Part shown: positions 3,187 through 23,880 of the stretch, in pieces
How the letters are laid out: the number at the start of each line of letters is the position of its first letter
How positions within the stretch are numbered: the stretch's first letter is position 1
Origin: a virus
DNA length: 23,880 bases
IMG/VR virus record: IMGVR_UViG_3300028840_000875
Span: 1-23,880 of that record
Direction: 5' to 3' (one strand)
Program-made: the position numbers and the translations under genes
The notes under the pieces: generated by a model
Databases searched by the model: none
Told to the model about the DNA's origin: nothing
The model's input: the letters and a program-made list of their open reading frames with translations, nothing else

Positions 3187-6100
3187 ATGTCAGATGAAAT
3201 AACGCCTTACTTAGGGCTTATTCTAAGTAGTGATTTGACACGAGAGTCAAAAATAAATCTAAGAAAGATAGACACAATAGCAGCTGTCTTTTACAATTCC
3301 CAGACAAGCGGAGCAGGACTTCGTTCAGCTGGTGATATTAATATTGTATCTGATGCCAGTGAATTAGGCGGTGGCGGCAATGGCCCCACAATAGAACTAG
3401 ACGTAGCAGGAAATGCTATAAATTTTGCAAGTGATGCAGCTGATTTAGCTATAGATTTTGGTGGAGCAACAGCAACAAGTTTGACAGTGCCATGGGCATT
3501 GTTGACGTTTGCAGATTCCTCTGTGCTAGACATATTAGATTATGTAACAGAGACACAATCACAAATAAATTCAAATACAAACGTAATAAGTGCAGCAGCA
3601 CATATTATCCGTACAGACAATCCTCATAGTGTAACAGCAGCTCAAGTAGATGCTTACACAATAGCTCAAGTAGATGCATTAATTGATGGAAGAGCTTCAG
3701 ATGCAGAACTAGCTGCACATGTTAATGACACAACAAATCCACACAGTGTTACAGCAGCACAAACAGGCGCATATCAAACCACGGAAGTGGATGCCTTATT
3801 ATTATTAAAAGCAAATAAGAGTGTAGTGGATAGCCACATTGCAGACACAAGTGTTCATGGTGTATCAGGCGATGTTGTTGGAACAACAGACACGCAAGTG
3901 CTTTCTAACAAGACAATAAATGCTTCTGTAAATACAATAAGTAATATAACAAACGATGAAATCAAATCAGACGCTGCTATTGACGGTACAAAAATCACCC
4001 CTGATTTTGGCAGTCAAGTTGTAAAAACAACGGGGTCTTTTCAGCTTTCTAATGGAACATGGACAACAGATATAAAACCAGCAGCTTCAGGACAAGCAGG
4101 GCATTTAACATTCTATTTCCCTTCAGCCGACGGAACAGCAGGACAAGTGCTCACTACGGATGGGGCAGGTAATTGGACATGGGCTTCTGTTATGACTAGT
4201 GTTCTTCCTGAAAACAATCTACGTGTAGGAGACGCTGGCGGGGCTGTAGCTATTGTTGATACAAGCTCTGTAGGGGATGTATTAGCTGATAGCGTAACAG
4301 GTCTTACAATCAAAGCTGGGGCTATTGTGAATGCTGATATAAATGCATCAGCAGCTATTGATGCTTCTAAAATAGGAGCAGGCAGTGTTAGTAATACAGA
4401 GTTTGGATATTTGGATGGTGTAACATCAAGTATTCAAACACAATTTGATGATATTTCTACAGCTACAGTGCCGTTAACAAAAACAGGCACGCCTACAACA
4501 TTAGATGTTATAGATGATGCAAATACATTCTTCCTCAGTGCGGGACTTGTATCAGGTGGGGGTATTACAACAGACGATGTTAATGACGAAGTAAGTATTG
4601 CCAACGGTGAAGTGTACATTCGTACAAGTGCAAGTCATACAGCAGAGCTGATATATACAACATTCACAGGCGGAACATTATCTATACCTGACGGAACTAC
4701 GAGATATGTTTATGTAGATTATAATGCAGGTTCCCCTAACGTCGGTGTAACAGACGATATCACGTCTATTCCTTGTCAAGATACGTGTGTGCTATATGTA
4801 TGTAGTAATTGGAATGGAAGCATTAGCCACACGGCGATTGGTAATTATTTAAATGACCATCAAGCAAAAGAAGCCAGAAAGAGTGCTGTTATAGCTTGGC
4901 TTGAGCATGGATATGGAGCAGCTCTTAGTAGCCCTTCCACAACAACAATAGCTTTAACAGCAGGTGGCTTCTATGTAGGACATGAGCTACAAACTACAGC
5001 GGCGTTTGATACAAGTGCAGCGGATACATTCACAGCAGCTTATAGAGATGGGCTTGGAGCATGGACGTATGTTGATAGCCAGACAGCCCTGTCTACAGCG
5101 AAATACGATGATGGGTCTGGTACATTAGCAGATTTAAACAACAACAAGTTCGGTGTGCATTGGGTGTATTTAGACATTAACACACCTGATAGATTGCTTT
5201 CTGTTTATGGAACAGCCGAATATCCAACACTAGCTGAAGCACAAGCGGCTGGTGTGCCTTCTGTTCTTCCTCCAGCAGCACAAGCATACTCTACAGCAAA
5301 GCTTGTAGGGAAAGTGATTGTTAAGCAAGGCGTTACAGATACACAAGATGTTCAGTCTCCATTTGAAGATGTTCTTGTTTCCTCTACACCAGTGACACAT
5401 AACAATTTAGCTGGACTTGATGTTGGTGATTATCAACATTTAACAGCGGCTCAAGATGCAAAACTAAATACAAATACATTGACAGCGGAACGTGTATTAA
5501 TAGCAGACGCTTCTGGATATGTGGCTACATCTGATATTACAACAACAGAGCTTGATTATTTAGACGGAGCTTCTTCTAATATACAAGCACAATTAGATGT
5601 ACTTGCAGCTGTTAATACGGATACATTAGAGCCTACAGGATTTGTAAATAGAACAGATTCTACACTATCGTTCGATAATGGTACAAGAACAGTGGCTATA
5701 ACACCTGCTGTAACATCCTTTGATTTCTACATACGAGGAACAAAATACACAAAATCCTCTGCACAATCAATTGTAATTCCTAACACAACAGATACTTACT
5801 ACGTGTATTTCGACAATACAGGAACATTACAATATTCTACGTCTGTACCTGATTTCACAAATACGTCGTTTGCAGCCCTCCTTTATTGGAATGCTACAAC
5901 AGGTGATTGGTTCTTAGGCGAAGAAAGACATGGCATTACAATGGACGGGGCTACACATGGGTATTTACATAATACTCGTGGAGCTGCCTATGCCAGCGGA
6001 CTTGCTGTTTCAGGATATAACACAGGAAGTGACACAGCAGCTGATATTGAATTTGATATTAGTGCAGGTGTCTTCTATGACGAAGATATTAGAAATACAC

Positions 6101-6906
6101 CAACAGGTCTTACAGCAGGAGATAATTGGCATAAGTGGTATAGAAGCGGGGCTGCTGGAGATTGGAAAAAAGACACAGCTACAAGCATTCCTACATTCTA
6201 TGATGGTGGGATAAATCGCCCGTTAATAAATATTCTCTCAGGAGGCGTGAGCTGGACACAAACTCCCGTAACAGCTAATTATTATTTTAATACATATGTT
6301 GTTGCCACGAATGAGGCTGACACTAATGGCTTAATATTATTATCAGGGCAAGAGGAATATAGTAGTCAAGCAGCAGCTGAGGCTGAGACAATCAGTGGGC
6401 TTTCTTTAGGGTCTCTTCCTTCTCCTGAGACAGTGCCTTTGTATCAGATAACATATCAATATAAGACAAGCTATACAAATAATGATGCTCGTGTAGTGAT
6501 TGCCTCTGTAACAGATTTAAGAAATACAGGTTCTCTTGGTGTATCGGCTACGCCTTCCAACAATCACGACGCTTTAGCAGGATTGCAAGGTGGGGCAGCT
6601 GGTGAGTATTTCCATTTAACAACAGCACAGCACACAAGCTTAGTGGGGAATTTACGCTACGAAGGAACATTCGATGCTACAACAAGTTGGGGAAGCTCGG
6701 CTGTAGGAGCAGATGGATTTACGTATTACACAATAACAATTACAGCAGCAACACATGGCCTCTCCTCTCCTGCAAGTGTATGTGTTTATGAAGACAGCAC
6801 AAATGAGCGTGTTTATTTAGACACATTCATAGACGAGAGCACAAAGGATGTTTCTTTCCGTGTGGAAGATGACTTCCGTTTTGCTGGTAATTACCGTATA
6901 ATTTGA
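3187..6906 (+). CDS. Long tail fibre protein
   Basis: 1239 residues, with start site AAGAGG (3175-3180) before the ATG. The N-terminus (Asn-Leu-Arg-Lys-Ile-Asp near residue 25) resembles virion-anchoring ends of phage fibres. Known fibre-type repeats are visible. An Asn-Pro-His-Ser-Val-Thr-Ala-Ala-Gln unit occurs at 145 and 184, within a 39-residue repeat. A Tyr-Leu-Asp-Gly...Ile-Gln-x-Gln unit occurs near 407 and 790. A His...Leu-Ala-Gly-Leu...His-Leu-Thr-x-Ala-Gln unit occurs at 738 and 1127. Between them are long Thr/Ser/Gly-rich beta segments with scattered aromatic residues. Such proteins are homotrimers that bind the host surface. There is no S74 or other chaperone domain at its own C-terminus; the last about 90 residues look like a compact beta domain. 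It heads a cassette of three fibre-like genes. Which part contacts the receptor cannot be told. Confidence 0.88.
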   Translation: MSDEITPYLGLILSSDLTRESKINLRKIDTIAAVFYNSQTSGAGLRSAGDINIVSDASELGGGGNGPTIELDVAGNAINFASDAADLAIDFGGATATSLTVPWALLTFADSSVLDILDYVTETQSQINSNTNVISAAAHIIRTDNPHSVTAAQVDAYTIAQVDALIDGRASDAELAAHVNDTTNPHSVTAAQTGAYQTTEVDALLLLKANKSVVDSHIADTSVHGVSGDVVGTTDTQVLSNKTINASVNTISNITNDEIKSDAAIDGTKITPDFGSQVVKTTGSFQLSNGTWTTDIKPAASGQAGHLTFYFPSADGTAGQVLTTDGAGNWTWASVMTSVLPENNLRVGDAGGAVAIVDTSSVGDVLADSVTGLTIKAGAIVNADINASAAIDASKIGAGSVSNTEFGYLDGVTSSIQTQFDDISTATVPLTKTGTPTTLDVIDDANTFFLSAGLVSGGGITTDDVNDEVSIANGEVYIRTSASHTAELIYTTFTGGTLSIPDGTTRYVYVDYNAGSPNVGVTDDITSIPCQDTCVLYVCSNWNGSISHTAIGNYLNDHQAKEARKSAVIAWLEHGYGAALSSPSTTTIALTAGGFYVGHELQTTAAFDTSAADTFTAAYRDGLGAWTYVDSQTALSTAKYDDGSGTLADLNNNKFGVHWVYLDINTPDRLLSVYGTAEYPTLAEAQAAGVPSVLPPAAQAYSTAKLVGKVIVKQGVTDTQDVQSPFEDVLVSSTPVTHNNLAGLDVGDYQHLTAAQDAKLNTNTLTAERVLIADASGYVATSDITTTELDYLDGASSNIQAQLDVLAAVNTDTLEPTGFVNRTDSTLSFDNGTRTVAITPAVTSFDFYIRGTKYTKSSAQSIVIPNTTDTYYVYFDNTGTLQYSTSVPDFTNTSFAALLYWNATTGDWFLGEERHGITMDGATHGYLHNTRGAAYASGLAVSGYNTGSDTAADIEFDISAGVFYDEDIRNTPTGLTAGDNWHKWYRSGAAGDWKKDTATSIPTFYDGGINRPLINILSGGVSWTQTPVTANYYFNTYVVATNEADTNGLILLSGQEEYSSQAAAEAETISGLSLGSLPSPETVPLYQITYQYKTSYTNNDARVVIASVTDLRNTGSLGVSATPSNNHDALAGLQGGAAGEYFHLTTAQHTSLVGNLRYEGTFDATTSWGSSAVGADGFTYYTITITAATHGLSSPASVCVYEDSTNERVYLDTFIDESTKDVSFRVEDDFRFAGNYRII
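3574..3850 (+). repeat. 39-residue (117-bp) fibre repeat
   Basis: Two clear copies of a unit containing His-x-x-x-Thr-x-Asn-Pro-His-Ser-Val-Thr-Ala-Ala-Gln start their Asn-Pro-His at bases 3619 and 3736, 117 bases apart. A degenerate third copy (His-Ile-Ala-Asp-Thr-Ser-Val-His-Gly-Val) follows. The outer boundaries given are approximate. The unit type is common in phage fibre shafts. Confidence 0.75.
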
Positions 6907-6936
6907 CAATAACACATACTACAGGAGATTTTTATA

Positions 6937-8142
6937 ATGGGCAAATTAACAGATAGAATAGCCCTTCCTCTGCTTCCTACAGGCACAGATAATGCCGTAG
7001 TGAAGTATAACGGAACCAGTGCTATACAAGAAAGCGGCGTAATAGTAGACGGAAGCGATAATGTTTCAGGGGTAGGGACATTCACAGCCACGGGACTGGT
7101 AAAAGGCTCATCTATACAAGGAACACTATATACAAGCGGACGTATTCCTAAATTCAGTACAGACGGATTGGTGGCTGATAGTGGCGTGTCTATTGATGCT
7201 TCTGATAATATTAGTGGAGTGGGAACGCTTGATTGCGGGGCTATAACGAGCACGAGCACAGGAACATTCACAAATACAATTACAGACGTTGTAAAGGTGA
7301 AAACAGGCTCAGGTTCGCTTGCTATTCAAAACAGCTCAGGAACAAGTCTTGCAAGCTTTGATGATAGCGGTTCTTGTAGAATTGGTTTATTGTCAGGTGC
7401 TAGTGCATTAAATATGAATGTAAGGACAGGGGAAATACAACTACAATCTACGCTAAATGATGTTGACCCATCCATTCGATTTATTACTGATAACGCTGCA
7501 AACAAAGCAAGAATACAATCTAATAGGAATAGAGTTAGCGGTTCAGGTTCAAGTTCCTGTGGTTTAGATTTTTATGCTTCCACGAGCGGTAGTGAGGTGC
7601 TTGCAGGTTCTTACACATTTGCAGGAGCTTGGACGCTTGGGGCCAGCAGTAGTGCAAGGCACTTCATCCAAGCCACAAATGTAGCTGGTCAAGAAATACT
7701 ATGGCTGACAAAACTAGGCGTAGCAGGAGGAACCACTTCGTCTTATTTCCAAGGATTTTTCCACGGTGCCACGGCAGAGGGCTACATATGGCATGATGGT
7801 TCTGGGAACATGACATTTGCAAATGCTTCAGATGAACGACTAAAAGAAAACTTCAGAGACTTTAATGCTTTAGAGTTAGTCGATGCTGTAAGTCCTAAAT
7901 TGTACGATTGGAAAGATGGAAAAGGGACAGATGTTATAGGATTTATTGCTCAGGACTTACAACAGACATTTCCTAAAAATGTTAACTACTTACCAAAGTC
8001 AAATCCAGAAGATGAAAACGAAGAGCAGTATTTAGGGATTAGTGAAAGCCAATTAACAGCAGTGTTGTGGAAGGCCGTCAAAGAGCTAAAAGCAGAGAAT
8101 AATAACTTAATAGCTCGTATAGAAGCATTGGAAAATAAATAA
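6937..8142 (+). CDS. Tail fibre/spike with C-terminal Peptidase_S74 intramolecular chaperone
   Basis: 401 residues. The C-terminus is a Peptidase_S74 (endosialidase-type) chaperone: Ser298-Asp-Glu-Arg-Leu-Lys303 is the family's Ser/Lys dyad motif (Ser and Lys five apart), followed by Gly-Phe-Ile-Ala-Gln-Asp and a terminal helix. In this family the domain guides trimer folding and then cuts itself off before the Ser, here leaving a mature part of about 297 residues. Residues 19-53 and 68-103 are two copies of a short beta module ending in Asp-Asn-(Val/Ile)-Ser-Gly-Val-Gly-Thr, and a related copy is in the gene at 8810. A Gly-Ala-Trp-Thr-Leu-Gly element precedes the chaperone. The leader AGGAGATTTTTAT (6923-6935) is identical to that of the capsid gene, suggesting good translation. 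No enzyme (depolymerase) domain is recognised. Confidence 0.93.
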   Translation: MGKLTDRIALPLLPTGTDNAVVKYNGTSAIQESGVIVDGSDNVSGVGTFTATGLVKGSSIQGTLYTSGRIPKFSTDGLVADSGVSIDASDNISGVGTLDCGAITSTSTGTFTNTITDVVKVKTGSGSLAIQNSSGTSLASFDDSGSCRIGLLSGASALNMNVRTGEIQLQSTLNDVDPSIRFITDNAANKARIQSNRNRVSGSGSSSCGLDFYASTSGSEVLAGSYTFAGAWTLGASSSARHFIQATNVAGQEILWLTKLGVAGGTTSSYFQGFFHGATAEGYIWHDGSGNMTFANASDERLKENFRDFNALELVDAVSPKLYDWKDGKGTDVIGFIAQDLQQTFPKNVNYLPKSNPEDENEEQYLGISESQLTAVLWKAVKELKAENNNLIARIEALENK

Positions 8143-8143
8143 C

Positions 8144-8719
8144 ATGAAGCCTACAAAGCTCGACAAATTAAAATGTTATACACATGTATGTCTGTTACTA
8201 TTAATAGATTTATTCCGTATTGTCTCAGCTCCATTCATGTACATTATATATTACAGATTCTATAGAAAAGAATTATTCGGACGACGTAATGCTGAGGGCT
8301 TGTCTCCTTGGCATAAATTTGTATGGCTATATGCTGACATGGAAGAGCTGCCACATTGGGCAGGAAAGCCTACATTCTATAATTGTTGGAAATATTCAGC
8401 CATACGCAATCCCATGTTCAATCTATGCCTCACATCTTCGCTGTACAATATAAAAGGATTTACACATTGTTATGTGCAATTTGACACACGGGATAAAACT
8501 CGCTATGCTACATCCGACGGCGTAGGAAAGCAATATTATGGCAGCGTAATGGTGTGGTATTATAGCGAAGAACGTAAACGCTGGGTATTTATTTGGGAAC
8601 GAGCTAATGAAAACGTCTATCAATATTTTGGCTACGTCGGATTGCTTGATAGGAAATTTGAAAGACTAAGCGCACGCTTTGAGCTTGCATTTAGAAAGAA
8701 CACAACGCCACGGCAATAG
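8144..8719 (+). CDS. Small membrane-anchored phage protein, unknown function
   Basis: 191 residues, starting one base after the previous stop, so translation is probably coupled. The N-terminus has a short basic stretch and then a hydrophobic segment (about residues 11-37, with Pro30) that should anchor it in the membrane. The rest is rich in Trp, Tyr, Phe and Arg, including Trp-His-Lys-Phe-Val-Trp-Leu-Tyr (56-63) and Ile-Arg-Asn-Pro-Met-Phe-Asn-Leu (87-94). The layout (N-terminal membrane segment, aromatic region, Arg-Asn-Pro motif) reminds me of a widespread small phage protein family of unknown function (DUF7338-like), but I cannot confirm that. It sits between two receptor-binding genes although nothing in it looks like a fibre. 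A role in the infected cell's envelope (lysis accessory or exclusion) is possible but unsupported. Confidence 0.7.
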   Translation: MKPTKLDKLKCYTHVCLLLLIDLFRIVSAPFMYIIYYRFYRKELFGRRNAEGLSPWHKFVWLYADMEELPHWAGKPTFYNCWKYSAIRNPMFNLCLTSSLYNIKGFTHCYVQFDTRDKTRYATSDGVGKQYYGSVMVWYYSEERKRWVFIWERANENVYQYFGYVGLLDRKFERLSARFELAFRKNTTPRQ

Positions 8720-8740
8720 CCGAATAAAAGAAAGGAACGC

Positions 8741-8766
8741 CGGAGTTGAAATGGGTTCAACTTCCG
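8741..8766 (+). promoter_or_regulatory. RNA hairpin in the leader of the second S74 gene
   Basis: CGGAGTTGAA (8741-8750), loop ATGGG, and TTCAACTTCCG (8756-8766) form ten pairs with a single bulged T. No T run follows, so it is not a standard terminator. It lies in the 90-base gap before the ATG at 8810, whose ribosome binding site is the AAAGGAAAGG at 8795-8804. It could be an mRNA-stabilising or processing element. Confidence 0.6.
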
Positions 8767-8809
8767 CGCACAAGCCACAGCAACAGCTGATTCAAGAAAG
8801 GAAAGGCTT

Positions 8810-10531
8810 ATGTTAATTAAGGGACTTCTTAAATTAGTTACAGGAATATTCTTAAAGGAACGTTCTAGTACACCGCCTACACCAAGTGCAGGAGAAAAGC
8901 TCCTGTATGCTAAAGACGACGGGAAAGTGTATACACTCGACAGCACAGGTAAAGAATCAAGTATTGGTTCAGGACTTGTACTTGTCAGCCTAGACCACAC
9001 AGATGACGCAGGTTCTGGCTACAACACAACGGAACAAGAACATTACCTATGCGACACCTCTGGTGGAACATTTACAGTTAATTTGCCTGCTGGAGACGAA
9101 GGCTTTAAAATTAGATTTAGTGACGCTGGTAATGCATGGGCTACAAACAATTTGACAATTAGCCCTGCGGCTGGAGAGACAATTGATGGCTATGCTGCGG
9201 ACGAGGATTTAGTATTAGACGTAAATAGAAGCTGGGTGCAGCTGAATTGGGACAATGACAATAGTGTGTGGTTAGTTGATACGCTGGCAACACAAGATGT
9301 TATTCAGCAATCAGACGCAAGTGTAACGGATAATACATTGCCAAGATATGATGGAACAACAGGACAATTGATACAAGGCAGTGGGATTGTTGTAGCTGAC
9401 ACAACAAACAATGTTTCAGGCATGGGAACATTAAGTTGTGGGGCTATAACAAGTACGGGGAGTAGTACGTTTGGCGACACAGCAGGAGGAACCGCACAAA
9501 GGATGTATGGTAAAGACGCTAGCGGAAATATAGACTTACCATCAGTAATCACATCTAGTGCATCTGGAGCTGGAGGAACCTCTTTATACACTATAATCGA
9601 CCATACAAACTCGTGGTGTGGGTTTAGGGCTACTGGAAACACAGGAGCAGCTAAAGAGCTTAGATTTTATGCAGGTACAAGTAACGTAGGTGGTCATTCT
9701 TCAACAGGAGCTTGGACGCTTGGACTAGCATCAAACAGAGCAGTTATTAATCAAACAACAAATACAACAGCAATAAATAGCAATGCTTACTATTCAGGAT
9801 TTTCAGAGTATCGAAGCGATACCACAAGAGCGGGAGCATGTTTAATCGTAAACGCACCAGCTAGTGACGGAGGAAATGTTTATGAGTTTTGCGTTAACAA
9901 GGACGGAGAAGCTACAAACGCACCTCATACAGTGATAGGTTCAGCTACGCCACTAGGAGCTTGGACGCTTGGGCCTAGCAGCGATGCTAATACATTAACA
10001 CACCCTGTATATGGTCGCATAGCATCTCGTACAAGTACGACTGGTAACTACTTTTATTGCAAAACCTCGACAACGACAGATGCCATACTGAGAATGTTTT
10101 CAGATGTTAGTGGTACAGAAGTATTAAAATTTAGAGTGGAGGCTGACGGTGACGTAATTTCAGCTACAAACTCATACACTTCCGACGAAAGAGCTAAAAA
10201 ACTAATAAGAGCAATTCCGTATGGGCTTAACGAAATAATGCAATTAAATCCATCAGGCTTTAGATGGAACCACGAAGACGATGATGCTATAGAAAGCTTC
10301 TCCGTTGCAACAGCTCAGAATTTAGAGCAAGTAATGCCAGAGATGGTGAGAGACGATGGCCTTGAATATATAGATGAAAATGGAGAAACAAAGCAGTATA
10401 AGGCTATTTATGACAAAGAAGTGATGGCTGTTATGGTGAAGGCAATACAAGAGCTAAACGCAAAACACGAAGCTGTTGTTGCTGAATTACGAGCGGAAAT
10501 AGAACTGTTGAAAAATCCACTACAACAATAA
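8810..10531 (+). CDS. Second tail fibre/spike with C-terminal Peptidase_S74 chaperone
   Basis: 573 residues. A basic hydrophobic N-terminus is followed by a Pro-Pro-Thr-Pro-Ser-Ala-Gly-Glu-Lys-Leu-Leu-Tyr motif (from about residue 22), a type seen at phage fibre N-termini. A beta domain with a Phe-Thr-Val-Asn-Leu-Pro-Ala motif lies at about 60-165. A module like those of the gene at 6937 starts at Asn175 and includes Asn-Asn-Val-Ser-Gly-Met-Gly-Thr. Two Gly-Ala-Trp-Thr-Leu-Gly elements occur in the middle. The C-terminal S74 domain shows Ser458-Asp-Glu-Arg-Ala-Lys463, the expected Ser/Lys dyad, and ends in a coiled coil; self-cleavage would leave about 457 residues. The two S74 proteins differ in their N-terminal ends and chaperones but share central modules, suggesting two spikes or branches on one virion. 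No enzymatic domain is recognised. Confidence 0.93.
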   Translation: MLIKGLLKLVTGIFLKERSSTPPTPSAGEKLLYAKDDGKVYTLDSTGKESSIGSGLVLVSLDHTDDAGSGYNTTEQEHYLCDTSGGTFTVNLPAGDEGFKIRFSDAGNAWATNNLTISPAAGETIDGYAADEDLVLDVNRSWVQLNWDNDNSVWLVDTLATQDVIQQSDASVTDNTLPRYDGTTGQLIQGSGIVVADTTNNVSGMGTLSCGAITSTGSSTFGDTAGGTAQRMYGKDASGNIDLPSVITSSASGAGGTSLYTIIDHTNSWCGFRATGNTGAAKELRFYAGTSNVGGHSSTGAWTLGLASNRAVINQTTNTTAINSNAYYSGFSEYRSDTTRAGACLIVNAPASDGGNVYEFCVNKDGEATNAPHTVIGSATPLGAWTLGPSSDANTLTHPVYGRIASRTSTTGNYFYCKTSTTTDAILRMFSDVSGTEVLKFRVEADGDVISATNSYTSDERAKKLIRAIPYGLNEIMQLNPSGFRWNHEDDDAIESFSVATAQNLEQVMPEMVRDDGLEYIDENGETKQYKAIYDKEVMAVMVKAIQELNAKHEAVVAELRAEIELLKNPLQQ

Positions 10532-16297: not shown

Positions 16298-18871
16298 ATG
16301 GCAATACAAAAAGACTTATCAACAGACCTATCGACACCAGACTTGCCAGAAGAGCAAAAGAAGAAAATTGGCACGGCTATAACACCTCTTGGAGCTACAT
16401 TGTCTGGTGCGACGGAAGACCAAACTAAGATGATGGGCACACCTGCTGCTAAAATGGGAGCTATTAAGCGAAGCTCTACAGGACTTGCAGAAATACAACA
16501 AGCTGCTCAAGAAGGACGTGCCATAGACGAAGCCGCTGTAAAAGCGCAGCAAAAAGAACAAGACTTACTTGCTAAGGCAGGGACAGGATTTTTAGATGTA
16601 GATATGGAACGCCTAAGTGAAGTGGCTGGATATAATACAGACGTAGAAGCTAAGGCTAAACAAAATGCCCTATCAAGTATTCAAGCATCAATACAAGGAC
16701 TTGGCACTAAATTAGATATAACAGCTGAAAAAGAAAAAGAATATGGACTTACAACAGATGAAGCATCTAAGATTGAGGCGTTATTAAATAAAGGAAGAGT
16801 AACAGAAGCTATGGATATGTTTAGAACATCCACAGCAGACACAATGGACAGTAGTGGCCTGTCAGACACAGACGCTATACGTAGTTTATTTCCAGACGTG
16901 AACGAGTCTTTATTAGCTACAGTGGAGAATACTAAGTTTGGATTACCTGAAGAAATGAAAGCTTCTGACATATGGGAAACAGGTTCGGATAAAGAGACGA
17001 CAATAAAAGAGTTATTCCCCGATGTAGAACTTGACAAGATAAGTCCTGTTAAGCTCATGGACATGGTGCAAGAGAAATTAGCCTCTTACAATCAAGTGGA
17101 CAATTTAAAAGCTGTATTAGCCGACCCATTCACAGGAACCCATGAAAGACAAGCAGCTATACAAAAATTAAGAGAACTTGGAGCTACAGGTACTCGTTCC
17201 TTCGAGAATCAAATAGATCAACTTGAAGTGGATTTGATGGATGATAGAGCAACAGTGGAATACGACGGAGAAGAATACACGTATGAGGAATTGTTATCAG
17301 GAGAGAATCCTGCAATAACAGCATCTATACTATCTGCCGTTACAGATGAAAAAGAGTTTGAAAAGCTAAAAGCATCTCAGCCCGGATTGGCTGGTGCTAT
17401 AGAAAAATACAGAGATACATTCAAGACAGCCTATGACAATATGTCCCAAGCCAATAAGACAGTGTATGGGAACGTAGCACATAATAATAGCGTGATGACA
17501 ATTAAAGACAAGAGTGGTAATGAGATACGGGTAGGAGACAACGTAGCTCAAGTATTAGGAATAAATACAGCAAGTGGTTTAAAGAGGGCTGTACAACCTG
17601 ACGTAATAGAAGTGGCTGGAGAATTAGAAGACATGGGATATGACCCCACTACGTATAAGAATACATTAGAATGGCTCGCTGTCAATCAACCTGCTTTACT
17701 AAAGACACTTGAAGGAGAGACAGACTCCGTGGACGATGTATTAAATCTATTACAAGGAGATTATAGCTTCCTTCTCGAAGACCCACAAAAATACATGTCC
17801 AGTTATGAAGGTTCTAAAGCATTCAATGCTATGGTGAGCAATAATAATTGGAAAGGTGTATGGGACACTATTGGGGTGGATGATGAAGCGAAAGATGTAA
17901 TAAAATCTCTTACATCAGGCATTACAGGACTTGATTGGAAGAATAAGAGAATGAAAACAGAGAGCGTAGATATTATGGGTGTCTCTGTACCTGTCAAAGA
18001 CCTAATGACAGAGTCAGGCATACGCAATTTAATGCACAAAGTGGGTCCACAGAAATTTGCAGCAGCAGGAACAACATTACCAGCAGAGATACAAAAAGCT
18101 GTAGTGGGTAAATTGGAAGGGAAAGCAAAAGCATTTGAAGACAATCTACAAAAATTTGGAGCTAGTGTTAGGTTTGGAGAGGTAAATCCCCGTTTATTGA
18201 AGCAAGATTTTGGAAATGGTGTTAAATTATCAGATACTATGGCTTTGTTGGAAACAGCAGGAGCATCTAAGGCTATTCAGGCTGAAGGAACCAGAGTGCG
18301 AGAGGAAATAAACAAACTAAAAGCGGAATACAACCCTTCTTTCATTATTATAAATGGGGAACAGGTAGAGATTCCTAATTCTGAGATAAACAAACAAATA
18401 CAAGAAAAGATTGATGGATATAATAAATTTGTAAAGGAAGAAACAGAAAAAGCTTATGCTCCATATGCAAAGTATATAAACGAGGCAACAGAATACAGGA
18501 AGGCATACTTAGAAATTAGAGAAATAGATGCAAAGCTAAATAAAATACGTGATGATCGAAGTAAAGGAAACTACTCATCAGGAGGAAATTTTGGTGAGTT
18601 AACAAAGCGAAGACAAGAAATTGGTACACAGCTTGATAAACATAATTGGGTGATAGGAAGCAAACCAAAAGACTACGACAAGTTATTTCCGAAAGACCCC
18701 CTTGATTTTACGGATGTTATAAAGCCGAAAGCTTCCTCGTCAGGAGGAAACAGGACACTAAGTGATGAGAGGTCTTTTAATTTTTCCAGAAGAGGCGGCA
18801 GTGGTAGCCCTACAACAACAACAATACAAACTAACAGGCCAGAAAGCTCGTACAAACCAACGAAAGCATAA
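16298..18871 (+). CDS. Large internal virion / ejection-like protein, unrecognised family
   Basis: 857 residues, hydrophilic and largely helical, with no signal peptide or clear membrane segment. Residues 1-70 are low-complexity (Thr/Gly/Ala/Lys with Thr-Pro-Leu-Gly). A Leu-Phe-Pro-Asp-Val element occurs twice (about residues 195 and 245), each followed by an acidic helix, suggesting a short internal duplication. A helical Lys/Glu-rich region lies near 700-785, and the C-terminal 50 residues are Gly/Ser/Thr/Pro-rich and probably disordered. It is the first of a run of helical proteins directly after the nozzle gene, where podoviruses encode proteins packed in the head and ejected ahead of DNA (as T7 gp14-gp16). 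No lytic transglycosylase or other enzyme motif is visible. The role is inferred from position and composition. Confidence 0.6.
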   Translation: MAIQKDLSTDLSTPDLPEEQKKKIGTAITPLGATLSGATEDQTKMMGTPAAKMGAIKRSSTGLAEIQQAAQEGRAIDEAAVKAQQKEQDLLAKAGTGFLDVDMERLSEVAGYNTDVEAKAKQNALSSIQASIQGLGTKLDITAEKEKEYGLTTDEASKIEALLNKGRVTEAMDMFRTSTADTMDSSGLSDTDAIRSLFPDVNESLLATVENTKFGLPEEMKASDIWETGSDKETTIKELFPDVELDKISPVKLMDMVQEKLASYNQVDNLKAVLADPFTGTHERQAAIQKLRELGATGTRSFENQIDQLEVDLMDDRATVEYDGEEYTYEELLSGENPAITASILSAVTDEKEFEKLKASQPGLAGAIEKYRDTFKTAYDNMSQANKTVYGNVAHNNSVMTIKDKSGNEIRVGDNVAQVLGINTASGLKRAVQPDVIEVAGELEDMGYDPTTYKNTLEWLAVNQPALLKTLEGETDSVDDVLNLLQGDYSFLLEDPQKYMSSYEGSKAFNAMVSNNNWKGVWDTIGVDDEAKDVIKSLTSGITGLDWKNKRMKTESVDIMGVSVPVKDLMTESGIRNLMHKVGPQKFAAAGTTLPAEIQKAVVGKLEGKAKAFEDNLQKFGASVRFGEVNPRLLKQDFGNGVKLSDTMALLETAGASKAIQAEGTRVREEINKLKAEYNPSFIIINGEQVEIPNSEINKQIQEKIDGYNKFVKEETEKAYAPYAKYINEATEYRKAYLEIREIDAKLNKIRDDRSKGNYSSGGNFGELTKRRQEIGTQLDKHNWVIGSKPKDYDKLFPKDPLDFTDVIKPKASSSGGNRTLSDERSFNFSRRGGSGSPTTTTIQTNRPESSYKPTKA

Positions 18872-18883
18872 GAGGACGATAAC

Positions 18884-19741
18884 ATGGCAGGACTATTAAA
18901 TTCATTACAAGACACAATAGAAGCCAAGAAGCAAACCAATAAGGGAAGTCTCGAACAGCTCAAGGAATTGGCTGTAGCTAAGCTTGGTAAAGTGTATGGG
19001 CAACAAGCAAGTACAGGTACATCTGCTCAGGCTGAAAAGAGAGCACAGGTGTTGGCTAGTGCTAATTTAGACAACGTAAACAAAGCCGTCCAGAATAAAC
19101 AGCTCGACCAACAACGTAAGTTTGATGCAGCTCAACAAGAGACACGTCTTGCTGCTAAGGAAATGGATCAAAAACAAATACAATTGTATGAGAGCGTAGA
19201 GCAAATGAAATCAGAGCTTTACACACGTGCTGCTCAAAATGCCAGTAAGTTAAGTTTTAGAGAAAAAGAATCATTCCAACAACAAGCTATATTTATGGAA
19301 AAGCTCACAAACAAAAAATATCTAATGGAATTAAACAGCGTATGGACTAAGCAAAATTTACGAGATCAACAAACATTTGATATGGAATTACAACGTGCTA
19401 TATTTGCAGATGAGTTTGAGCTATTAGAAGACGATATAGAATTTAGGACGTTATTAAATGCAGATGAAAGAGCATTTAGAATAGAGGAAGCTAATATAAA
19501 TAACGCATTAGCTGAACAGCTCCTTGGTCTTGAAATGGAAGCTAACAAGTATGCAGGTATTGTGAAAGGCACTACACAAATCGCTAAATCTGGTATACAA
19601 TACTATACAAGTCAAGCAGGAACACCAGAAGGAGATGCTGTGGAAAATCCATATGGAAACTACGTACAATCTGAAAGAGATACAGGACTAACAGGAAACT
19701 ATAGCTGGGACAGCCCTGTTCCTACGTTTGGAAAGGAATAA
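18884..19741 (+). CDS. Coiled-coil internal virion-like protein, 285 residues
   Basis: Starts 12 bases after the previous stop, with GAGGA before the ATG. It is Gln/Lys/Glu/Ala-rich and almost all helix: a first region at 1-60 (Leu/Lys/Ala-rich, possibly amphipathic at the very N-terminus), then long helices at 60-230. The last 50 residues lose charge and become Gly/Tyr/Ser/Pro-rich, so probably extended. There is no membrane segment. The composition and the length of about 285 fit small ejection proteins. Its Gln-rich helical style is like that of the next gene, but I see no alignable repeat between them. I do not recognise a family. Confidence 0.55.
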   Translation: MAGLLNSLQDTIEAKKQTNKGSLEQLKELAVAKLGKVYGQQASTGTSAQAEKRAQVLASANLDNVNKAVQNKQLDQQRKFDAAQQETRLAAKEMDQKQIQLYESVEQMKSELYTRAAQNASKLSFREKESFQQQAIFMEKLTNKKYLMELNSVWTKQNLRDQQTFDMELQRAIFADEFELLEDDIEFRTLLNADERAFRIEEANINNALAEQLLGLEMEANKYAGIVKGTTQIAKSGIQYYTSQAGTPEGDAVENPYGNYVQSERDTGLTGNYSWDSPVPTFGKE

Positions 19742-19744
19742 CAC

Positions 19745-20551
19745 ATGGCCATCAATCCTACATTATTACAACCACCTGCGGATGACGAACAATCGGCTAC
19801 AATTCAATCAACAATTGGTGGAATGCAGCCGGGAGCTTTCAACACAGGACAATTACAACAAGCAGCAGGTAAATTAGCTGAGCAACAATCTGCTAAAACA
19901 ACACAAACACTTGCACAACAAGGGGAAGAAGATTTACAGCAGCAAGCTCGTTCGTATGAAATACGTCAACAAGAAGCTGGAATGAATCTTAAAGAAAGGC
20001 AATTACGCTTAAACGAAGTGAAATTTAAAAATGACCAAGAGCTTAGGAAGCTAGAAGGCGTAATTAATTCAGAAGCATTCAGCAGAGAAATGAAAATTAA
20101 TTATGACAATTTAGGAAGAGCTGCATTGAACGAAAAACAATTGTTGGATGTAGCCATACTTCAAGCAAGAAGTGAGCAAGACTTAGTGCAGTTTAAAATT
20201 AAGGCTGAAGCTATGCACAAACGTAGGTTGCAAATTTTACAACAATCGTATAAAGTGTTAGTGCAACAGACGAAACAGAATTTTGAATCTAGTGAACAGG
20301 AAAAAGACCAAGCTATGAAAGCAGAACTAGCAAGAATTAAGGCAGCTTATGATAAGAAAGTGGCTGAAGCTAAAGCTAAATCTTCTAAACTCGGCTCTAT
20401 AATATCAGGTGTCTTCACTGTAGGCGGGGCCATTATTGGTGGTATTTATTCCTTTGGTGCGGGTGCTCCTGCTGGAGCCGCAGCAGGGGGAATGATAGGA
20501 AGTCAAGTAGGTGGATTAGTGAGTTCAGCAGCACAAGACGAAGGGATATAA
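19745..20551 (+). CDS. Internal virion-like protein with glycine-rich hydrophobic C-terminus
   Basis: 268 residues. It begins three bases after the previous stop, and its site (AAGGA) is inside the end of that gene, so translation is coupled. Residues 1-75 are Gln-rich, and 75-210 are long charged helices. From about 216 to 263 the chain changes sharply to Gly/Ala/Ile with small residues spaced in a glycine-zipper-like way (Gly-Gly-Ala-Ile-Ile-Gly-Gly, then Ala-Gly-Ala-Ala-Ala-Gly-Gly-Met-Ile-Gly). This looks able to enter or span a membrane. T7 gp14, the small ejection protein, inserts in the outer membrane, and this gene is the best local candidate for a comparable role. The family is not recognised. 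Confidence 0.58.
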   Translation: MAINPTLLQPPADDEQSATIQSTIGGMQPGAFNTGQLQQAAGKLAEQQSAKTTQTLAQQGEEDLQQQARSYEIRQQEAGMNLKERQLRLNEVKFKNDQELRKLEGVINSEAFSREMKINYDNLGRAALNEKQLLDVAILQARSEQDLVQFKIKAEAMHKRRLQILQQSYKVLVQQTKQNFESSEQEKDQAMKAELARIKAAYDKKVAEAKAKSSKLGSIISGVFTVGGAIIGGIYSFGAGAPAGAAAGGMIGSQVGGLVSSAAQDEGI

Positions 20552-20555
20552 TAAA

Positions 20556-22613
20556 ATGGCATTTACTAAAGAGTATTTAGAGCGAAAACGAAAGAGTGAC
20601 GAGCAGATACGAAAAGGAAGAGAAGAGGCTAAACGTAAAGGAATTCCTTCTAAGTATGAGCGCATGTACCATCCTAACAAGGCAGAGGAACAAGCAGACG
20701 ACAACTCGCCTAGTTTTGTGGATAAAGCACTAGAGTGGATAAAAGGCAATCCAACGGACAATAGTTTTCTTGGAAGTACCTCAGACGAATTAGTAGCGTC
20801 AGAGGCAGCTAAAAAAGAAGAGATACAGGAAGCAAAAGCTTTACAAACAGGAGACGATACTGTCACAGAAAAACGTGCTCCTGTGTTGGAAGATGTAACT
20901 GCCCCTTGGGAGGTTCCAGAAGAAGAACCAGCACTAGCTCCTTCTGTTGAAGAAGACAAAAGAGATGTGGAGGTTACACCTACTATCAGAAGTTTGGAAG
21001 ATGTATTCAAAGCTTCTATATCTCGTCCCGAGGCTCCAAAGCGAAGCGGAGAACTTGAGCTTGTTGATGCTGAAGGCAAGCCAGTAGTACAAAAATATGG
21101 CAATTTAGTAGAGGCAAACAAACAACTAAATAAATGGATATTTAGCCAAGTAGGTGCTATTGATAAAAAAGAACAAGCAGGAATAAATAGCGCTGTAGCA
21201 AGACTAGATAATAAGTTTGCAGCATACAAACAAAAAATAGCAAGCTTGACAGGACAAGCTGATAGAGAGAGCAAAAATCTCGCTATGGGTATGCTATTAG
21301 AAGGTATTGTAGATGGACTTGGAATGATTGCTGTTGCTGCTACAACAAAAGGACGAGCAGAGTATTCCAAAGGTAAGGGTGTAAATTGGGACATGTTGAA
21401 TGCTCAAATTGATAAACGTATGAAAAATCAAATGGCTGTTCTTGATGCTCAATTCAACTTCGACCAAAATGTAGTTAAAGATGAGATATTACAAGCTAAA
21501 TACAACGCCAAGGCTGAACGAGACAGAGTGGCAATGATGGCAGGTGGAGCACAAAGACAGATAAGTACACAAGAGAGAGATATAGCAGATAAGGAAGCTA
21601 AGTTACAAAAATATAAAGAGATGTGGTTTGGTGTGCAAAAAGAAGACCAACTACGCAAGGAGGCAGCGGCTAAGGAAAATAGAGCATTCGAGCTTCAGGA
21701 GAAAGAGCAACGGCTTAAATACGCTGATAAAGAAGAAGAAAGAAAAGCTAAAGCACAAAGACAACAATTGGCTATTGATGCAAAATCCCTTGAAGGTACA
21801 AAAAACAGAGCGTTGAAAGAGCGTATGCAACGCACTGCACAAGCGTTCGAAGCTGTACAAAGTGAACTAAATAGAATGAACAAAATAGACTTGACCACTA
21901 TGAATATTGAAAGTAGACGAGAATTCCAACAAGAGCGTATGAAATTTGAAGCTGAACAAAACAGATTAGAGAGAGAGTTGAGAACGGACATGCTTGCTGC
22001 TAGATTAGAAAACAGTAGAGTGCTGCGGCGATTATCTATTAAGCAAAAAGAATTTGACAGAGCAGCTAAAACAATGTCCGAGGATAAAAGGATAGCTGCA
22101 CAAAAAGAACTAAAACAACTAGAAGCAGAGGCCCAAAAAGAAATAATGAGAGAAGAAAAACGTCTAAATAACATGTATGGAAACGCCTCTACAAGCACAC
22201 AATTAGCTAGTCAGAAATTTGGCTATAAAATGGGTCAAGATAGAGAAAAGAAGCAAGGAGAGCGGCTAGGGCTAGGAAGCCTTCTGGTTGAAATAGGCTC
22301 CAATCCTGATGCATCATCTAAGCAAGTATCACTACCAGCAGGAAGGCAGATTGAAAAATTCCCTAATGCACTTAATGCTCTACCAGCAGATATTCGGACA
22401 GCTATATCAGAGGCTATAGGATTATTAAAATCATCTGAAGGTACATCATTCATGGGCAAGATATTTAACAGTGGTGATAGAGAAAAGGCACAGAAAGCAG
22501 TGAAAGAAATAGGAGAGGCTATATCCTCCGGCAAACCTATCATCTCAGGAAAAAACGCTGGTAAGGACAGGAAGAAGTATAGAGACGCAGGATATGTTAT
22601 AATTAATATTTAA
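20556..22613 (+). CDS. Long coiled-coil internal virion-like protein, 685 residues
   Basis: Begins four bases after the previous stop. The N-terminus is strongly basic (Lys/Arg-rich, 1-50), followed by an acidic, Pro-rich linker (about 80-140). Residues 244-265 form one hydrophobic helix (Met-Gly-Met-Leu-Leu-Glu-Gly-Ile-Val...) long enough to cross a membrane, although it contains Glu and Asp. From about 280 to 545 comes an unbroken Lys/Glu/Arg/Gln-rich coiled coil, one of the longest helical stretches in the window. The C-terminal 140 residues look like a small globular helical domain ending in Ile-Ile-Asn-Ile. The place after the two smaller helical proteins fits an ejection-protein role like T7 gp15. 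No enzyme motif is visible. I do not recognise a family. Confidence 0.55.
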   Translation: MAFTKEYLERKRKSDEQIRKGREEAKRKGIPSKYERMYHPNKAEEQADDNSPSFVDKALEWIKGNPTDNSFLGSTSDELVASEAAKKEEIQEAKALQTGDDTVTEKRAPVLEDVTAPWEVPEEEPALAPSVEEDKRDVEVTPTIRSLEDVFKASISRPEAPKRSGELELVDAEGKPVVQKYGNLVEANKQLNKWIFSQVGAIDKKEQAGINSAVARLDNKFAAYKQKIASLTGQADRESKNLAMGMLLEGIVDGLGMIAVAATTKGRAEYSKGKGVNWDMLNAQIDKRMKNQMAVLDAQFNFDQNVVKDEILQAKYNAKAERDRVAMMAGGAQRQISTQERDIADKEAKLQKYKEMWFGVQKEDQLRKEAAAKENRAFELQEKEQRLKYADKEEERKAKAQRQQLAIDAKSLEGTKNRALKERMQRTAQAFEAVQSELNRMNKIDLTTMNIESRREFQQERMKFEAEQNRLERELRTDMLAARLENSRVLRRLSIKQKEFDRAAKTMSEDKRIAAQKELKQLEAEAQKEIMREEKRLNNMYGNASTSTQLASQKFGYKMGQDREKKQGERLGLGSLLVEIGSNPDASSKQVSLPAGRQIEKFPNALNALPADIRTAISEAIGLLKSSEGTSFMGKIFNSGDREKAQKAVKEIGEAISSGKPIISGKNAGKDRKKYRDAGYVIINI

Positions 22614-22630
22614 TCTGGAGCCTATTGACA

Positions 22631-23880
22631 ATGGAAAACCAATCAAGTAAAATGAGAACATCCACCCCCCAAGAGGCAGGTAGTTCAATGGCAACGCCTG
22701 TCTCTTCCCCCTATACACAAACATCAAGTTACGATGGTAATGAAACATTTGATGTAAGAAGCGTGATTGAACGCTTGCGTTCTTCTCCATCCGCAACATC
22801 AGAGGAAGAATATGTCGCCCCGACTGCTGAAGATACACAAGAAGAAGATGGTTATGATATTGGGTCGCTGATACGTTCTCTACGTCCTTCGACGGGTTTA
22901 CGAGATGCCCTACCTTCTGTGACAGAGTCTGTGTCAACAGGAGCGGAAGAAGAGTATTACGCAAGTGATGAGGGAATGAAAGGGCATATTGTAGCCACTA
23001 TCCGTCCTGAGGAAATAGAAGATATTGCAGCAAAATATGGAGTAGAAGAGGCTCCATTGCGTGGGTATTTGGACTGGGTAGGAGGTACAATATATGGCGA
23101 GGATATGGATGTGACGACACAGGCTGGTAGTTTGTTACAAGAAAGCTTACTTCTAGGACTTCCCGGATGGCTACGTAAGAAATTTGAAGACGACGACACA
23201 GAAAAAGCTATGGACGAAGTGAGAGACTTAGTACGTTCAAGACAAGGAATAGCTCGTACAGCTCTTGATATAGGAACTGGTGTAGCAGCAGCGGTTCTTA
23301 CAGGTGGCGGAACAGCCCTGTTGAAAGTGGGGGCATCGGCTGTCTCTAAAACAGCAGCAGCTAAAATAGCTCAGTCTACAGCAAAATCCGTTGTAGCAAA
23401 GAACGCAGCAGAGACAAGTTTAACAGCCATTCTGACAACAACAGCAAAGCAAGGTGCTATATATGGAGGCTTGTCTGGACTTGCAGAGTCTGAATCAGAT
23501 AGTGAATTTTCTGGAATAGCAAAAGGAGCAGCACTTGGTGTTGCGGCAGGTATGGCTCTTCAAGGAATTGTACGAGGCGGTACAGCTACTTATAAACACA
23601 TAACAGCTAATAGAAAAAAAGTGGAACAGGAGGTGGCGGATGCCTTAGCTCCTGTACAAGATGACATACTTGATGCACACGTGCAAATGTATGGTGATGT
23701 AGAGTCTAAAATTGTCGACGCAATGCAAACACCTTATGTTATATTACCCGACGAAGCACTAGATGCAATGGCAATACGACCTACAACATATCTTCTGTCT
23801 TTTGCTGACGCCTCTCCTGCCTTCTTTAATGGAGCAGTTTCATCTATTTTTCCCATACGTTTAAGCCGTATTGCCATTGC
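22631..23880 (+). CDS. Large virion-like protein, 3' end outside window
   Basis: The frame opened by the ATG at 22631 (GGAG at 22617-22620, ten bases upstream) has no stop up to the window end, giving 416 complete codons. Residues 1-115 are Ser/Thr/Glu-rich and probably disordered, with two related short elements (Val-Ile-Glu-Arg-Leu-Arg-Ser and Ser-Leu-Ile-Arg-Ser-Leu-Arg). Residues about 120-205 look folded and helical. From 210 to 240 and from 275 to 320 the chain is Gly/Ala-rich and hydrophobic (Gly-Thr-Gly-Val-Ala-Ala-Ala-Val-Leu, then Gly-Ala-Ala-Leu-Gly-Val-Ala-Ala-Gly), separated by an Ala/Lys/Ser helix. This pattern suits a large ejected or membrane-penetrating protein. Any peptidoglycan hydrolase, polyvalent or polymerase domain would lie beyond the window. 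Low-complexity composition makes family assignment unsafe. Confidence 0.7.
   Translation, partial: MENQSSKMRTSTPQEAGSSMATPVSSPYTQTSSYDGNETFDVRSVIERLRSSPSATSEEEYVAPTAEDTQEEDGYDIGSLIRSLRPSTGLRDALPSVTESVSTGAEEEYYASDEGMKGHIVATIRPEEIEDIAAKYGVEEAPLRGYLDWVGGTIYGEDMDVTTQAGSLLQESLLLGLPGWLRKKFEDDDTEKAMDEVRDLVRSRQGIARTALDIGTGVAAAVLTGGGTALLKVGASAVSKTAAAKIAQSTAKSVVAKNAAETSLTAILTTTAKQGAIYGGLSGLAESESDSEFSGIAKGAALGVAAGMALQGIVRGGTATYKHITANRKKVEQEVADALAPVQDDILDAHVQMYGDVESKIVDAMQTPYVILPDEALDAMAIRPTTYLLSFADASPAFFNGAVSSIFPIRLSRIAI

Follow-up and report, generated by a model that had tools for sequence, protein, structure and literature searches.

A set of five ejection proteins was described for the E. coli phage SU10, whose virions contain gp20-24, which are missing from the intermediates of genome release (PMC9509320). 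In gp14/15/16-like sets, the order consists of a small membrane protein, a mid-size protein and a large one, of ~181-240, 431-982 and 609-1337 amino acids (aa), respectively (PMC8954989). Five cargo proteins (gp45, gp46, gp47, gp49 and gp50) were also reported for crAss001, of which two were proposed to form a channel and three are RNA polymerase-related, channel and cargo travelling together (PMC10172136). The stretch of DNA analysed here, hereafter the window, is the entire IMG/VR record IMGVR_UViG_3300028840_000875 (23,880 bp), whose last five genes, P1 to P5, are consecutive and tightly spaced, with gaps of 12, 3, 4 and 11 nucleotides (nt), as an initial annotation of the sequence had described them, at the sizes it gave. 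Judging from their sequences, P1 to P5 quite likely serve an uncultivated podovirus as its internal (ejection) proteins, and we infer that they are ejected. This reading, which supports the ejection-like character initially proposed for them, results from their position, order, size and helicity, from conserved glycine-rich hydrophobic segments and from a near-total absence of cysteine.

The position and order of the genes were assessed in ten IMG/VR genomes, that of the window phage included, all of them from uncultivated phages; the adaptor and capsid proteins led to the relatives G2, G6 and G9, and P5 to further ones. The order nozzle-P1-P2-P3-P4-P5 was kept in all ten genomes, with the cassette placed directly 3′ of the nozzle gene, and in most reference podophages examined the ejection genes likewise lie 3′ of the adaptor and nozzle/tail genes. 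Gaps within the cassette were mostly of -13 to 39 nt, and protein sizes ranged over 704-962 aa for P1, 240-320 for P2, 262-320 for P3, 358-685 for P4, the most variable of the five, and 1085-1282 for P5. In this way, P3, P4 and P5 fit the gp14/15/16-like order and mostly its sizes, P3 being somewhat larger and P4 smaller in some relatives. The reference member shared about 11-28% protein identity with its relatives. BLAST related the window phage to G2 through P1 (3e-12), P2 (4e-9), P3 (6e-15) and P5 (1e-4), and to G6 through P5 (2e-7), while P4 was tied in by a match between G2 and G6 (3e-7), by an aligned conserved block and by its position. Since nine diverged genomes contain homologues of all five in this order, P1 to P5 are real genes and not chance open reading frames (ORFs).

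Cysteine scarcity was considered as a signature, which was derived in this analysis from known ejection sets. Over the ten genomes, P1 to P5 contained 2 cysteines in 30,563 residues, where about 140-180 would be expected at the rate of the head and tail proteins of the same genomes (0.45-0.6%; other ORFs, 1.4-2.2%). Cysteine was absent from T7 gp15/gp16, P22 gp7/20/16, N4 gp51/52 and the first 1000 residues of N4 gp50, as well as from SP6 gp35-37 and from SU10 gp20-24 and their Grimontviridae counterparts; the exceptions were T7 gp14 and a small P-SSP7 protein, with one cysteine each, and epsilon15, with five over four proteins. Moreover, the longest cysteine-free coding run corresponded to the known or presumed ejection genes in 11 of 11 reference podophage regions (loci L042 and L044-L053, including T7, P22, N4, SP6 and SU10), which were mostly partial genomes picked to contain the structural module, the ejection genes of phiGT1, RIO-1, A24 and BUCT695 being presumed. 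This run spanned P1 to P5 in three of four uncultivated genomes, and in G2 it was split by a single cysteine that came from an over-long ORF start. Such an absence likely reflects the passage through the oxidising periplasm and the unfolding through the portal. The cysteine-free run is possibly a general annotation signature for ejection cassettes, of which no description was found in a literature search that was not exhaustive, and it would provide a simple, homology-independent way to locate these cassettes in uncultivated phages.

As to composition, the enrichment in glutamine, lysine and glutamate initially attributed to the whole cassette applied to four of its proteins: glutamine makes up 10-12% of the P2 and P3 of the window, and lysine and glutamate abound in P1 and P4, but P5 shows neither enrichment. 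Among the hydrophobic or glycine-rich segments listed in the same annotation, that of P3 at residues 216-263 was recovered and proved to be hydrophobic in ten of ten genomes (KD19 0.92-1.82) and glycine-rich in nine; where gp14-like proteins have multiple predicted transmembrane (TM) helices, KD19 showed this one stretch in P3. The P4 segment placed at 244-265 was hydrophobic in the window, with a KD19 of 1.75 at 242-262, but it is not conserved, as none of the nine relatives exceeded a KD19 of 1.20. The P5 segments at 210-240 and 275-320 were also present, within a region that is glycine-rich in nine of the ten genomes, but they reached a maximum KD19 of 1.51 in the window phage, which is below the classical TM helix threshold. 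P5 also has a conserved C-terminal domain with a FSMFTKWP-type motif. P1 has no hydrophobic segment, and its homologues harbor EF-hand-like DxDxDG loops in six of the ten genomes (L032, at residue 555, L034, L035, L036, L037 and L040), two of these loops matching Pfam EF-hand models (best E 1.2e-4); the P1 of the window has no such loop. The hhalign comparison of ten-member profiles related P2 to P3 (P=2.8e-6, probability 88%), with P of at least 0.1 in reversed and column-shuffled controls, and revealed no significant similarity in any other pair among P1 to P5. P2 and P3 are, on profile evidence, diverged paralogues, so that the cassette may have fewer distinct roles than genes.

The five families were indeed unrecognised, as had been claimed, since no convincing match was found for P1 to P5 in Pfam, PHROGs, PDB sequence profiles or named phages. 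The profile-profile and structure-based check that the initial annotation had suggested against T7, P22 and N4 was run on profiles of the ejection proteins of T7, P22, N4, SP6, P-SSP7, epsilon15, phiGT1, RIO-1, SU10 and Grimontviridae, and no homology to well-studied ejection proteins, taken one by one, was found. The best hhalign results were a probability of 6.8% for P5 and gp16 among T7 gp14/gp15/gp16, 18-21% for P5 and gp24 among SU10 gp20-24 (E 0.001, 18-47 columns), and 9% for P3 and gp7 among P22 gp7/gp20/gp16 (26 columns). The structural part was less informative: the AlphaFold2 (AF2) models of P5, which was all-helical, and P1 had a predicted local distance difference test (pLDDT) of 51 and 48.6, respectively, and Foldseek at E<=0.001 retrieved nothing for P5 in PDB and BFVD or for P1 in BFVD. 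The claim that known enzyme motifs were lacking was borne out, as neither motifs nor domains were recognised in P1 to P5, including the P1 and P5 homologues of all ten genomes. A transglycosylase domain, in particular, was found neither in P1 to P5 by Pfam or PHROG match nor in any of the ten P1 homologues; such a domain is not defining for P22-like ejection sets. Three candidate matches were rejected as matches of composition because they were located on glycine-rich or coiled-coil stretches, namely that of the P5 fragment of the window with the N4 virion RNA polymerase (PHROG, E=5e-4), which vanished with full-length P5, and those of P3 with an endolysin PHROG (2e-4) and with Pfam DUF6861 (5e-5, below its cut-off).

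Several points weigh against the assignment of P1 to P5 as ejection proteins. By hmmsearch/hhalign, none was significantly similar to ~50 reference proteins or to the Grimontviridae/Kuravirus profiles, and no peptidoglycan hydrolase was recognised in the cassette with Pfam and PHROGs. The AF2 models are too weak for fold comparison. Cysteine scarcity also extends beyond ejected proteins, to the scaffold and some fibres, which have none, and the evidence altogether comes from the genes of uncultivated phages. An endolysin gene is located elsewhere in the genome of the near-identical contig G1 (see below), where it presumably serves lysis.

There is a small but real chance that only P3 to P5 are ejected, as a T7-like three-protein set, and that P1 and/or P2 belong to the tail or head (as a plug, a needle or a portal-bound factor), remaining with the particle or having a function in assembly. 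In fact, T7, P22 and N4 have three ejection proteins, P1 adjoins the nozzle gene and is devoid of a hydrophobic segment, and the T7 gene between nozzle and gp14 is that of gp13, which is not among the three. However, P1 and P2 are as cysteine-free as P3 to P5 (2 in 11,080 residues over the ten genomes), which argues that they belong with them even if the scaffold and some fibres are cysteine-free too, whereas the adaptor and nozzle contain several cysteines each; besides, P2 is a paralogue of P3, and SU10 ejects five proteins from an equivalent position (PMC9509320).

Some members, chiefly P1 or P5, could otherwise be cargo delivered to the cytoplasm to act on the host, and not part of a conduit, in the manner of the RNA polymerase subunits of crAss001 or the virion RNA polymerase of N4. 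The large size of P5 and its conserved C-terminal domain, the EF-hand-like loops of P1 in several relatives, and the fact that crAss001 cargo travels with channel proteins (PMC10172136) would suit this role, which is nevertheless unlikely considering that an enzyme domain is absent from all ten homologues of P1 and P5 and that their closest BFVD fold matches were not significant. These best matches (E 0.03-0.1) were tape-measure proteins, which could point to P1 to P5 being accessories of the tail tube, or scaffolds of the tape-measure kind, in a longer tail. Tape measures are common matches for long helical proteins that are poorly modelled, the module had no recognised gene for a major tail tube or sheath, and the adaptor and nozzle-type genes indicate a short tail, which makes this explanation highly improbable.

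Taking P1 to P5 as ejection proteins, we infer their packaging, ejection, channel formation and individual roles as follows. The five proteins would be packaged in the head and exit through the portal and nozzle before the DNA, probably partly unfolded, with refolding taking place afterwards in the cell envelope. P3, perhaps together with its paralogue P2, would be the first to insert, via its glycine-rich hydrophobic end, assuming the outer-membrane/first-out role; P4 may form the coiled-coil part of a periplasmic tunnel, and P5 would reach or anchor in the inner membrane and contact the DNA. P3, P4 and P5 would then act as T7 gp14, gp15 and gp16 do. P1, whose role is the least certain, may be a soluble accessory fifth component in the slot of the SU10 transglycosylase gp20. 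A more divergent scenario, which appears improbable, is that of an independently evolved ejectosome class, in which the non-enzymatic P1 would be unlike known ejection proteins, the calcium-binding EF-hand-like loops of several relatives could sense the calcium drop from the outside to the cytoplasm and time the assembly of the conduit, and the wall would be crossed without a cassette-encoded hydrolase.

In the window, the cassette is preceded by genes for a scaffold-like protein, the major capsid protein, fibre proteins, the adaptor and the nozzle (Table 1). The names adaptor and nozzle are based on position and weak family matches. The adaptor shared 33-37% identity with its G2, G6 and G9 counterparts, and its relatives matched PHROG 2941 'virion structural protein' (best E 6.4e-6); its position corresponds to that of T7 gp11, and hhalign gave no match with T7 gp11 or SU10 gp11. 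The nozzle protein was 31-34% identical to its relatives in the best segments, its N-terminus matched PHROG 8040 'head closure Hc3' (E=7e-4), and one member of the adaptor/nozzle set matched PHROG 6013 'tail protein' (E=4e-4). Upstream in G2 and G6 were found terminase, portal, scaffold-like and capsid proteins, the G2 portal matching P22_portal and SU10_portal.

Table 1. Cassette genes, neighbouring context genes and contig end in the window.
Feature	Position	Strand	Remarks
Tail adaptor / tail tube A-like protein, 331 aa	11148..12143	+	Context gene; conserved in G2, G6, G9
Tail nozzle / tail tube B-like protein, 1361 aa	12162..16247	+	Context gene; conserved
P1, 857 aa	16298..18871	+	First cassette gene; hydrophilic, helical, few beta-hairpins, no TM segment, 0 cysteines
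P2, 285 aa	18884..19741	+	Glutamine-rich, helical, 0 cysteines; P3 paralogue
P3, 268 aa	19745..20551	+	Glutamine-rich coiled coil, glycine-rich hydrophobic C-terminus 216-263, 0 cysteines
P4, 685 aa	20556..22613	+	Lysine/glutamate-rich coiled coil, 0 cysteines
P5, 5′ part of 1282-aa protein	22625..23778	+	0 cysteines; remainder in L002:16328-20176
Fold-back assembly artefact, outside P5	23779..23880	.	Reverse complement of G1 21861-21965

The contig IMGVR_UViG_3300017963_000377 (G1) is near-identical to the window, with all but one shared base in agreement up to 23778. Compared with G1, bases 23779-23880 of the window (~102 bp) are an inverted fold-back of the sequence just past the break; this artefact of assembly or amplification cuts P5 short. 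Thus, the open frame of over 416 residues reported initially for the last protein exists, but its final ~33 residues are not real, and the intact P5 of G1 (L002:16328-20176) has 1282 aa from the TTG at 22625 of the window or 1280 aa from the ATG at 22631, the likelier start.

By tblastn, none of 50,697 named phage records matched the adaptor, nozzle, capsid, portal, P1 or P5, and no relative of P5 was found in 84,980 bacterial/archaeal genomes, in which a prophage or host link was sought. By its genes, the lineage is a short-tailed phage with no cultured member among those 50,697 records. Other features were observed in these genomes. The region 3187-10531 of the window contains two fibre genes, of 401 and 573 aa, on either side of a 191-aa orphan; both fibre proteins match tail-fibre PHROGs, and their C-termini resemble S74-type intramolecular chaperones. 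The G2 TerL (L011:7858-10365, - strand) carries a Hint/intein-like insertion, being 836 aa long compared with 482 in G6. A ClpP-like / head maturation protease-like gene (L007:7397-8191, - strand), with homologues in G2, G6 and G9, is placed outside the head module, among replication genes. A 533-aa protein encoded in the window phage genome away from the ejection cassette (L008:1500-3098, - strand) matches 'DNA transfer protein' / metallophosphoesterase PHROGs (E 2e-16).

Among the known systems, SU10 (Kuravirus) presents the same layout, with five genes in tandem located 3′ of the nozzle gene, all cysteine-free. Its gp20-24 are of 260, 350, 322, 551 and 1473 aa, and gp21/gp22 form a paralogue pair (hhalign probability 97.7%). 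Like P2 to P5, they include a tandem paralogous, glutamine-rich pair of ~300-350 aa followed by a protein of ~550 aa and one of >1000 aa, and an SU10-type portal similarity is found upstream in G2. However, the first SU10 gene encodes the 260-aa transglycosylase gp20, whereas P1 has 857 aa and no hydrolase domain, and in SU10 the nozzle gene is separated from the ejection genes by the needle gene gp18 and by gene 19, whereas P1 adjoins the nozzle gene; there is no significant profile similarity between the two sets. By analogy, P1 to P5 may work like the SU10 set, similar versions of which are carried by Grimontviridae phages.

The T7 gp14/gp15/gp16 set shares with the cassette its position after the tail tube genes, the ascending small/medium/large order, a small protein with hydrophobic segments and the near-absence of cysteine, but it comprises three proteins instead of five, the cassette lacks a transglycosylase domain, and no sequence similarity was detectable. 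The P22 gp7/gp20/gp16 set also occupies the same position, P22-type portals occur in the relatives, gp16 has no muralytic domain, and the glycine-rich C-terminus of gp7 resembles that of P3 (hhalign, 26 residues, not significant); the P22 proteins are, in turn, three and smaller, with no detectable sequence similarity. By its published description, crAss001 also has five internal proteins expected to unfold through the tail, but three of them are RNA polymerase-related and its tail barrel is ring-built. The initial proposal of a larger and undescribed assembly was therefore not sustained, given the five proteins ejected by SU10, gp20-24 (PMC9509320), and the five cargo proteins of crAss001 (PMC10172136). 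By its sequences, the cassette represents an assembly of a known kind in a new version that is unrelated in sequence. The few podophage ejection systems thereby gain five sequence-novel protein families that are strictly conserved together, and the plan of five proteins seen in SU10 appears to recur in a lineage unmatched among named phage records.

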